Below, piece by piece: positions 9,570 to 63,103 of a stretch of DNA of 64,000 nucleotides. Source of the DNA: Haloarchaeobius iranensis (GTDB taxonomy: Archaea; Halobacteriota; Halobacteria; Halobacteriales; Natrialbaceae). The position numbers were made by a program, and so were the translations under genes. How positions within the stretch are numbered: position 1 is the first letter of the stretch; every line of letters starts with the position of its first letter. The notes beneath the pieces were generated by a model. That model ran no database searches, was not told the origin of the DNA, and saw only the letters and a list, made by a program, of their open reading frames with translations. The DNA lies in the NCBI RefSeq assembly GCF_900103505.1, contig NZ_FNIA01000013.1:1-64000 (forward strand). The letters are read 5' to 3'.

Positions 9570-11599
9570 ATGAACAGAAAATGGGTTGGGTGTTGCATAG
9601 CTATTTTGCTCTTTGGAGCGGTTACACCGGTCGTAGGCGGTATTACGGACGATTCCGCCCGTGGTGAGTTCAACAGCCCGGCCGCCGATACGGTTCTGGC
9701 ACCCTCGACCGTGCCGAACGAGTCGACGCCGGTCCACGAGATACTCACTTTCGACCGAACACCGGACCGAGACGGACACGTCCGCCTCACCGTCGACTAC
9801 GAACTCCACGAGAGCATCGAGACCCTACAGGTCTGGGTTCCGTTCGATGGCGAGGTGACGAGTACAACGGGAATGGAGCGAGAGGGCGTTACGTATGTTT
9901 GGGAACAGGGAAATCCCGCTCCATCGATGACCATCGTCTTCGAAGCGTTGAATCCGACTATCAGGGAGGATGGGTTCACGGAGGGTGACGGCTGGTCGTT
10001 CGTCGACGCCCGCGTCATGGCACGGGCGACTTCAGCCACGGAAGGACGACTCGACGGATACGGTATCCCCGACTGGAGGTACCGAGAGACCCGGTTCGTC
10101 AACGGTGAGGGCTACGTCGGACGGCAGGTTGCGTACCTCGGAGCCCATAGCACGGTCCACTGGGAGACAGACGACGAACAGTTCACGCTCGTTCTCCCGG
10201 ATTCGACCGACCGCGACGGCTCCGAAGTTCGGGACACGCTCACGGAGGCATCCACCGGCTACATTCCATCCCGGGACACGGTGGGTGTGACGGTGTTCGC
10301 CCTGGACGAACGGTTCGGGGGGCTCAAATTCAGCGTAAACCCCGATACTGCCGTCTCGATGACGGCCCCGGTCGACAGTCCAGAGAACATCTGGGTCCAC
10401 GAGTACGTCCACGTCAGACAGTGGTTCAACACCGAAGACGACCTCGAGTGGTCACCGAGGGGTCGGCGGAGTACCTCGCTGCACTCGAAACGTACCAGCA
10501 GGGCAGAATCTCGTTCACGACGTTCCACGACGCCGTCGAGTCCGAGTCGGATCAGTCGGTCGTTCTCGCTGAACCACGGACTTGGAACGAGTACTCGGAC
10601 TACCGTAAGGGCTCGCGGGTCGCAGCCGCCCTCGACGCACGAATCCGGCAGGAGACCGGGGGGAACTACACACTCCGTGACGTCATCTACGTGCTCAATC
10701 GGGAAGCCGGTAAGTATGCGAGCATGCTGACCCACGAGGACCTGAAGGCGGCCGTCGAACGGGTCGTCGGACGGCCGATGGACGACTGGCTTGACCGTTA
10801 CGTGACGACCAGTGAGGTGCCCTCTGTGCCGGAAGACCCCGGCCTGTTTTCGCAACCGTCGGGGGAGCCAGACGGTGACGGCGACGGCATCGCGAACATC
10901 GTAGAGCAACAGCGAAATGTCTCGTCGCCGTTCCTCGCCGATACCGACGGGGATGGTCTCGATGATGGCTCCGAGTTTGCCAACGGGAGCGATCCGACCG
11001 CGACCGACACGGACGGCGATGGACTGGGCGACGCTGCAGAGGTCCGAGTCCACGGCACGAACCCGAACGCGACCGACACCGACGGCGACGGCTTTTCCGA
11101 TTCAGCGGAGCTCGACAGGTACGAGACCGATCCCACCGCTGCCGACACCGACGACGACGGTGTCAGTGACGAGACGGAGGTGATAGAGCACGGGAGCGAC
11201 CCGACTGTAGAGGATTCGGACGGTGATGGACTCGACGACGGGGTGGAAATCGATCAACACAGCACCGATCCCACCACCGTCGACACTGATGGGGATGGTC
11301 TCGATGACGGAGTCGAGGTCACCGAACACGACACCGATCCGACCCTCATAGACACCGACGGGGACGGCCTGACCGACGGCGAAGAGGTGAACGAGTTCGA
11401 GACGGACCCGAACACCGAGAACGACGAGGAGGAGGTTCGGGCGACGCCGACTGCCACACTTACGCCGACTTCGTCCACGACACAGACGCCGACCGAGACA
11501 GTCACCGGGACGGACAGTGAAACGCCCGGATTCGGCGTGCCAGCGGCGTTCACGGCACTCGGTTGTCTGGTCGCGGCCCGCCGGTACGCCGGGCAGTAG
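9570..11599 (+). pseudogene. Secreted HExxH metalloprotease-like protein with Ca-type repeats, frameshifted
   Basis: The first frame (ATG 9570) has a signal peptide (MNRKWVGCCIAILLFGAVTP...), a long beta-rich domain and the zinc motif HEYVH at residues 277-281. It breaks after EDDLEW at 10451. Reading one base back restores VTEGSAEYLAALETYQQG, where E of TEGSAEY is the expected third zinc ligand of a gluzincin, so the two halves are one gene lacking one G in a TGG(G)TC context. The second half has about eight DTDGDGLDDG-type repeats (thrombospondin type 3/EF-like calcium loops, about 10870-11430), a Thr/Pro linker and a PGFGVP sorting tail ending ARRYAGQ. Repaired length is about 676 aa. Likely a cell-surface peptidase if intact; sequence error or recent inactivation remains open. 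Confidence 0.8.
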
Positions 11600-11652: not shown

Positions 11653-11734
11653 GCCAGGATGGCCGAACGGTAAGGCGCACGCCTGGAAAGCGTGTTCCCT
11701 TTCGGGATTCAGGGTTCAAATCCCTGTCCTGGCG
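11653..11734 (+). tRNA. tRNA-Ser (anticodon GGA)
   Basis: Acceptor strands GCCAGGA (11653-11659) and TCCTGGC (11727-11733) pair perfectly, with discriminator G. The anticodon stem CACGC/GCGTG encloses loop CTGGAAA, giving anticodon GGA. The long variable arm (TTCCC-TTTC-GGGAT type) is the class II mark of serine tRNA. The T-arm reads AGGGTTCAAATCCCT. CCA is not encoded and no intron is seen. The bases just downstream form an unusual inverted copy of its own 3' end (see repeat). Confidence 0.95.
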
Positions 11735-11857
11735 CTTCTGGAGTCGACAACGACGAGGAGCGCTAGCGACGAGTTCGTCGACTCCAGAACGCCCACAGGG
11801 ATTTGAATCAGGGAGGACGCAGCGGAGCGAGCAGGTCCGACCGTGGTTCGAATCCCT
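11735..11857 (+). repeat. tRNA-Ser trailer element: inverted and direct T-arm copies
   Basis: Three parts can be seen. First, arms TTCTGGAGTCGAC (11736-11748) and GTCGACTCCAGAA (11777-11789) are perfect inverted repeats. Second, ACAGGGATTTGAA (11795-11807) is the exact reverse complement of the tRNA T-arm sequence TTCAAATCCCTGT (11715-11727), so tRNA end plus trailer can fold as one long, nearly continuous hairpin. Third, after a spacer containing CAGGGAGG...GAGCGA...CGACCG, a direct T-arm-like copy GTGGTTCGAATCCCT (11843-11857) can pair with the inverted copy. The same arrangement follows tRNA-Gly. No protein can be read convincingly here. Confidence 0.7.
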
Positions 11858-11954
11858 ATCGGAGACCTCCCCGAACGCACACCCAGCGTCACGAACCCCG
11901 GCAGGTCGTGCGCCTGGCGGTGGTTACAAGCGGTCGCGCGTCGAACCGCCGGGC

Positions 11955-62604: not shown

Positions 62605-62675
62605 GCGCCGTTGGTCCAGTGGTAGGACAGTGGCTTCCCAAGCCACTAGCCCGGGTTCAATTCCCGGACGGCGCA
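62605..62675 (+). tRNA. tRNA-Gly (anticodon CCC)
   Basis: 71 bases. Acceptor GCGCCGT pairs with ACGGCGC (62668-62674), discriminator A. Anticodon stem GTGGC/GCCAC with loop TTCCCAA gives anticodon CCC. T-arm CCGGGTTCAATTCCCGG is perfect. No intron and no CCA. No clear TATA can be placed because the repeats run right up to the gene; this deserves attention. Confidence 0.95.
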
Positions 62676-62773
62676 TCCTTGTCTCGAACGAAGTGAGAGA
62701 CAGTACCGGCAGCGGGAATTGAACCAGGGAGCGAACGGGGTGAGCGACCGTGGTTCGGTTCCCGGACGGCGCA
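62676..62773 (+). repeat. tRNA-Gly trailer element: hairpin, inverted and direct T-arm copies
   Basis: Hairpin TGTCTC...GAGACA (62680-62702) comes first. CGGGAATTGAACC (62713-62725) is the exact reverse complement of the tRNA T-arm GGTTCAATTCCCG (62654-62666). After a spacer AGGGAGCG...GAGCGACCG, GGTTCGGTTCCCGGACGGCGCA... (62752-62773) repeats the tRNA 3' end with 20 of 22 bases equal. The order and spacer wording match the tRNA-Ser trailer at 11735-11857. Confidence 0.75.
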
Positions 62774-63103
62774 CGTCTCCCCACCCACCGGATGCGGACC
62801 TCGGCACTGGACGCCCCCAGCATCCGGCTGGTGGCGCTGTTGCGGAATCGCAGTTCGGTCCCGCGCGTACAGGCGCTGGTTGGACGCGGGAACCCGAGCT
62901 TTCGAGTCCGTCGCGAACGGTCATCCGGTTCGGTTCGAAACCACCGGGTAACGAGTTCCTGACGCAGAAAACCACCCGACAGCGCGGCAGGTAAAAGACC
63001 GTATTATTCCCGTTGGGTCGCTTACACTCCGAACGACGGTGAGGTAATCCGTGGTTAGCTATGTCCCCACGTATCAATGTTGTGGCCGGGGAGTTGGAAG
63101 GCC
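62774..63103 (+). other. Non-coding gap after tRNA-Gly trailer
   Basis: About 330 bases. Arg/Ser-rich frames crossing it look like shadows. It holds GTATTATTC at 63002-63010 and a 21-codon frame MSPRINVV... at 63061-63126 that overlaps the next gene and is unconvincing. I see no other gene. Confidence 0.4.

Follow-up and report, generated by a model that had tools for sequence, protein, structure and literature searches.

The sequence behind tRNA-Ser(GGA) in the window, that is, the whole stretch of 64,000 nucleotides of Haloarchaeobius iranensis analysed here, is probably one unit of a tRNA-anchored, gene-less and recombining cassette array with integron-like behaviour. The cassette system is dynamic at the DNA level: it is active, class-wide and recombining. 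We observe its distribution, its linkage to tRNA genes, a fixed orientation, filled and empty sites, the free association of modules and an Arg-ended cassette in Lys arrays. At the window locus the modules follow the tRNA in the order hairpin-1 (H1), inverted copy (I or A'), core (CAGGGA..GACCGTGG) and direct copy (D); their coordinates, with those of a second unit in the window, are collected in table 1.

Table 1. Parts of the two tRNA-anchored units in the window and the evidence for each
Feature	Position	Strand	Evidence
tRNA-Ser(GGA), array anchor	11653-11735	+	ARAGORN; Rfam RF00005 (61.4 bits)
A, T-loop to acceptor 3' end of tRNA-Ser, the segment copied in the array	11715-11735	+	inverted-repeat arm 11715-11727
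H1 module, 13-bp stem 11736-11748 / 11777-11789, loop with GACGAGGAGCGCTAGCGACGAG	11736-11789	+	inverted repeat, fold
I (A'), inverted tRNA-Ser T-arm copy, exact at 11795-11807; acceptor-like remnant CGCCC before the exact part	11790-11807	-	13/13 nt match tRNA
Conserved core TCAGGGAGGAC...GTCCGACCGTGG	11808-11846	+	covariance model R1, alignment A1, covariation
D, direct tRNA 3'-end copy TTCGAATCCCTATCGGAGACC, diverged	11847-11867	+	14/21 to Ser, 17/21 to Glu-CTC
tRNA-Gly(CCC), anchor of second array	62605-62675	+	tRNA prediction
Second unit: H1 62676-62712, inverted copy 62713-62723, core 62724-62753, direct copy 62754-62774	62676-62774	+	

The limits of A are supported by related loci, in which the array periods begin exactly at the T-loop. 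The initial annotation had described an exact inverted copy of the T-arm (11715-11727 against 11795-11807) and 13-bp arms (11736-11748 against 11777-11789), and both are exact where it placed them; chance would yield an exact match of 13 nt in some 400 nt about 6e-6 times. The second T-arm-like copy that it reported at 11843-11857 is also present, but the homology spans 11847-11867. The description of these as copies of the tRNA's own T-arm holds for the inverted copy, whereas it is uncertain for the direct one, whose slightly better match to tRNA-Glu(CTC) is suggestive only of that tRNA as its possible source. In the core, GG/CC pairs and a tandem G.A/A.G (11811-11814 with 11839-11842) close a variable stem, and the covariance model R1 matches the unit at 11796-11858 with an E value of 2e-11. 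The folded trailer region of the tRNA is more stable than 200 of 200 shuffles (z about -5.9). In the minimum-energy fold the tRNA, hairpin-1 and hairpin-2 (I paired with D) form simultaneously; thus, the two exclusive folds suggested initially, with I pairing either with the tRNA or with D, both exist on paper but need not compete. A search of the Ser locus against Rfam matched the tRNA and nothing further. To the eye, the protein encoded upstream of tRNA-Ser (window 10421-11599) has repeats of the Asp-rich form DTDGDG, a Thr-rich segment and a PGF-CTERM-like C-terminus (ETPGFGVPAAFTALGCLVAARR).

Although the arrangement noticed by the initial annotation is real, its repetition had been missed. 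The second unit, behind tRNA-Gly(CCC), is matched by R1 at 62712-62765, and a search of the same genome with the Ser region returned 13 places, mostly behind other tRNAs. Overall, units stand behind 17 of the 44 tRNAs of the genome (Arg, Asn, Asp x2, Glu, Gly x3, His, Leu, Lys x2, Met, Ser x2, Thr and Val), and two further arrays are now displaced from a tRNA. A chance origin of the window feature is ruled out by this recurrence in the genome and in the class. The arms correspond to the local tRNA, as with TTCAATTCCC of Lys and Gly(CCC) and TTCGATTCTC of His, which recur in mirrored form within their own units. The covariance model finds 19 copies of the core hairpin in the genome, 17 of which lie 31-195 nt 3' of a same-strand tRNA, while the remaining two sit after the displaced 3' ends of tRNA-Arg(CCG) and tRNA-Val.

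The displaced tRNA-Arg(CCG) array (G000:C22:108638-108780; L002 / L053) lies beyond a tRNA 3' half and beside the start of an integrase-like ORF (translation read by eye), and an intact tRNA-Arg(CCG) is found on another contig (G000:C17:5655-5727); the configuration indicates that a large integrated element has parted the tRNA from its array. The tRNA-less Val array (G000:C62:45885-45941; L054) is about 14.5 kb from tRNA-Val(CAC) (G000:C62:31381-31455) and is followed by sequence resembling that tRNA's own downstream flank. Here too, an integrated element probably lies between tRNA and array.

The general plan of a unit runs A, H1 hairpin, inverted A', core and again A (= D), where A denotes the 3' end of the tRNA beginning with TTC of the T-loop, and T-loop sites alternate in orientation along the arrays. 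Modules are hairpins of 30-110 nt with no ORFs, and units measure about 70-200 bp. Some form tandem arrays, such as four identical 111-bp or three near-identical 108-bp units, and the phase of the period is set exactly at TTC. The core has the consensus CAGGGA-NN...N'N'-GACCGTGG. Of 120 distinct cores, 110 have complementary dinucleotides past the tandem GA.GA (shuffle maximum 74), the pairs seen including GC/GC, GT/AC, AC/GT and GG/CC, and the tRNA-sense strand gives the better fold in 82 of 90 cores. Covariation and better sense-strand folding together indicate that core structure matters on the tRNA-sense strand, whether in RNA or in single-stranded DNA; such covariation would be seen for a folded DNA strand as well as for a structured RNA. 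Inspection by eye led us to drop a kink-turn/L7Ae or bulge-helix-bulge interpretation of the GA.GA motif, as there is no 3-nt bulge.

A core pattern without tRNA-specific bases matched 91 stretches in GTDB genomes, all except two of them haloarchaeal. In named genomes (80 loci examined) a same-strand tRNA precedes 79 of 86 matches, over more than 20 isoacceptors, and two of the seven exceptions are actinobacterial chance matches. Orientation is fixed, the core lying on the same strand as the tRNA in 79/79 tRNA-linked cases. Matches of the covariance model occur in 182 of the 194 haloarchaeal genomes examined and in 64 of the 66 genera, with up to 27 copies per genome; a draw across the phylum gave matches in 28 of the 33 genomes from the class and in none of the 164 from outside it. 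In this sample the cassette family is restricted to the haloarchaeal class. Carriage of the core by viruses was considered and rejected, as the core pattern is absent from IMG/VR. One viral contig (L274; IMGVR_UViG_3300027007_000028, 246-280) terminates in an array of tRNA-Gly(GCC) whose core is a variant; an array may turn up at the edge of a presumed provirus.

Close relatives provide filled and empty versions of the tRNA-Ser(GGA) site. In one congener (G402) the site is empty, and TTTTCGCGACGCA follows directly 3' of the tRNA. In another (G391) a unit roughly 200 bp long, whose H1 and core are not those of the Ser unit in the window, sits exactly between the tRNA end and a direct copy, which is followed by TTTTTCGCGACGCA, the trailer that adjoins the tRNA in G402. 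The window carries a third version. Conservation of the inverted copy at orthologous tRNA-Ser loci, on which the initial annotation had in part staked its observation, is mixed: among 30 tRNA-Ser(GGA) loci of the family the inverted copy is present at 16 and absent from 14, the direct copy is present at 15, and both occur at 13.

Thirty genomes of one genus (g23, probably Halorubrum) share an orthologous tRNA-Lys(TTT) locus that reveals module shuffling. Five H1 types and six core types make up 18 combinations among 27 units, compared with 16.9 expected if they were independent; H1 and core types associate freely at this locus. Pairs sharing the first core type are no closer kin than the others (flank identity 0.741 vs 0.739), and same-type modules are more alike than their flanks in 187 of 196 pairs, a figure partly built in because types are defined by similarity. 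Exchange also crosses between tRNA genes. A 74-bp cassette (X), normally behind tRNA-Arg(CCT), is found in the Lys arrays of several genomes, and comparison of a genome that carries it (G103) with one that has the empty site (G111) reveals a clean insertion with ATCCC at both junctions, which fits a 5-bp target duplication and a shared crossover alike. The Arg acceptor is kept at the left end and the Lys acceptor is joined at the right. Such an insertion would be the outcome expected from integration of a cassette at the T-arm of D. Of the three origins offered initially, the scar of an integrative element comes closest, in that DNA has been inserted together with a tRNA 3' end, and it is backed by the exact empty site in the congener and by cassettes moving among tRNA loci; what does not hold is that it records one old event.

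I and D usually copy the adjacent tRNA, whose own acceptor end is found on 182 of 255 downstream T-loop sites; D is near-exact in most other units and diverged in the Ser unit of the window. Across 156 units, the cells in which D departs from the tRNA divide into 38 with I still identical to the tRNA, 7 with I identical to D and 2 with I unlike both. Thus I mostly keeps the tRNA sequence where D has mutated, which disfavours strong selection on the I-D stem, and simple fold-back selection on I and D is unsupported by these counts. The inner core stem, in contrast, is compensated, whereas the I-D stem mostly is not. I and D are tRNA copies decaying independently. In the same 156 units A to G changes on the tRNA-sense strand are enriched in both copies, an excess that could reflect tolerance of G.U pairs or a strand-biased mutation process. 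Many D copies have an extra T-loop base (TTCAATATCCC, TTCACTATCCC and the like) that the tRNA and I lack; it spans several genera and different tRNAs (L060, L065, L070, L085, L087, L095, L127).

Whole units as well as single modules come and go at the T-arm (TTCRAATCCC), where they also multiply in tandem and change places, and the tRNAs remain intact. In our reading an entering unit supplies a new tRNA 3' end, and so the tRNA is preserved, the old 3' end being shifted downstream as D; later cassettes can then land on D, sparing the tRNA any risk. The exchange may be site-specific recombination, perhaps by a tyrosine recombinase on the T-arm and possibly via folded sense-strand DNA, and the arrays would be selfish or neutral rather than host machinery. 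Archaeal integrases act at the T stem-loop region and at tRNA gene 3' ends (PMC8371274), and one such enzyme recombines short stretches of homology as well (PMC5495485). We put forward tentatively, and with less confidence than the cassette array itself, an undescribed class-wide mobile system in which the T-arm of essentially any tRNA gene serves as the site of a dedicated haloarchaeal recombinase, probably acting on the folded sense strand. No recombinase gene is linked to the units. PF00589 counts bear no relation to unit number, with 23 units and one integrase match in G124 and four to 17 matches in unit-free genomes, so that a link between units and integrase load was discarded and a simple integrase model is disfavoured. 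Two further points count against site-specific recombination: circles of 74-200 bp are small for classical integration, and short-homology recombination could yield the same junctions. Against the cassette reading, core covariation and sense-strand folding also fit an RNA function.

Short-homology recombination with the tRNA as master copy is the main rival, and a possible one, if on balance somewhat unlikely. In this scenario generic homologous or microhomology recombination, gene conversion or template switching between nearby A repeats would shape the units with no dedicated enzyme. A alone is common to all units, so any exchange would show at A whatever its cause, and identical tandem repeats are typical of slippage or unequal exchange. 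Furthermore, I and D track the tRNA yet decay apart, as expected from re-templating by the tRNA, and the number of integrases does not follow that of cassettes. However, in the transfer from Arg to Lys no more than about 5 bp (ATCCC) served at the right junction, core modules are joined to tRNA-specific ends across about 10-13 bp, and the conserved, covarying core and its fixed orientation are left unexplained.

In an alternative scenario the unit would be transcribed with the tRNA as a structured part of the pre-tRNA trailer, and the resulting RNA would serve the host (in processing or stability, as an sRNA or as a protein-binding hairpin), the DNA shuffling being incidental. The conserved GGGA/GACC with compensatory changes around it (the 110 of 120 cores above), the better folding of the sense strand, the invariable same-strand position and the many I-only changes that are G.U-compatible (50 of 161) all speak for it, and an sRNA, as the initial annotation had suggested, or another RNA role may still be played by the unit given the core compensation and sense-strand folding. 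Yet the units are missing at many orthologous tRNAs, including that of a congener at the Ser locus of the window, unrelated core types freely substitute for each other, the I-D stem is mostly uncompensated (7 vs 38) and the Rfam match is limited to the tRNA; we regard this explanation as unlikely. Already disfavoured, and very unlikely, is the reading of the units as attachment sites left behind, in the form of attL/attR-like repeats, when large integrative elements or proviruses excised or decayed. A direct copy of a tRNA 3' end is the hallmark of such elements, two arrays of this genome lie beyond integrated elements at tRNA-Arg and tRNA-Val, and partial tRNAs beside full copies are reported for Haloferax gibbonsii (PMC7921747). 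But decay would not account for a shared core and an inverted T-arm behind more than 20 tRNA types across 64 genera, or for identical tandem units or free module combinations, and the core pattern does not occur in IMG/VR. Finally, the T-arm mimic proposed initially, which would recruit or sequester tRNA-processing enzymes by means of the two mutually exclusive pairings of I, is highly improbable and found no positive support: the minimum-energy fold pairs I with D while the tRNA folds normally, D has the conserved CCGTGG in place of a matching T-stem 5' strand, and the changes in I and D are mostly uncompensated (38 vs 7).

Mobile DNA favours tRNA genes as landing sites, and the smallest units using them were previously not known. 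Inserts of 74-200 bp that are class-wide and polymorphic between close relatives offer natural filled and empty sites, chimeric tRNA junctions and module reshuffling, which makes archaeal T-arm recombination directly testable. The arrays explain the 'partial tRNA adjacent to full copy' of haloarchaeal annotation, and tRNA annotation, att-site prediction and the setting of provirus boundaries could all suffer from them. If a dedicated recombinase does act on them, tRNA genes would be the anchors of integron-like arrays.

Several known systems share part of this picture. With tRNA-targeting integrative elements and proviruses (PMC8371274) the units have in common the tRNA 3' half as target, the restoration of the tRNA by the insert and the direct copy at the far end. 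In contrast, at about 70-200 bp they are too short for an integrase and cargo, and none lies inside; they add an inverted copy and a class-wide core, and occupy more than 20 tRNA types at once. REP/BIME elements similarly comprise alternately inverted repeats, two kinds of linker (as in A-H1-A'-core-A) and tandem copies, but they are one family-wide dispersed extragenic repeat, whereas here the repeated arm is locus-specific, being the local tRNA end, and confined to tRNA loci (79/86 sites). The SMRs and MITEs of Haloquadratum walsbyi (PMC3119063) are likewise haloarchaeal, non-coding, mobile and about 80-110 bp long; the SMRs, however, have terminal inverted repeats of their own and target other mobile elements, not tRNA ends. 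Partial tRNAs have been noticed next to full tRNAs in Haloferax gibbonsii (PMC7921747), where the accessible text concerns the direct copy alone, with no inverted copy, core, array or shuffling, and tRNA fragments arising from integration have been reported (PMC9897764). As far as their accessible text goes, none of these three papers (PMC7921747, PMC9897764, PMC3119063) describes the inverted copy, the core or the arrays. The initial annotation knew of no described element of this form, and in the open literature, to which our search was confined (subscription papers and supplements lay outside its scope), we likewise found no account of a mobile array of this kind.

Another parallel is with integron cassette arrays, above all those that lack an integrase (CALIN), which share a single anchor, modules with a common recombination site, shuffling and exchange between genomes. 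Integron sites are strand-specific imperfect hairpins, and in this they may resemble the core hairpin of the cassettes. The units differ in having no ORFs and no linked integron integrase (PF00589 matches were only counted), and in that the site is the tRNA T-arm itself, in alternating orientation. Lacking integrase, cargo and ORFs, they are neither tRNA-integrating elements nor integrons; they would rather represent a form of mobile DNA that is anchored at tRNA genes and behaves like an integron array devoid of genes.
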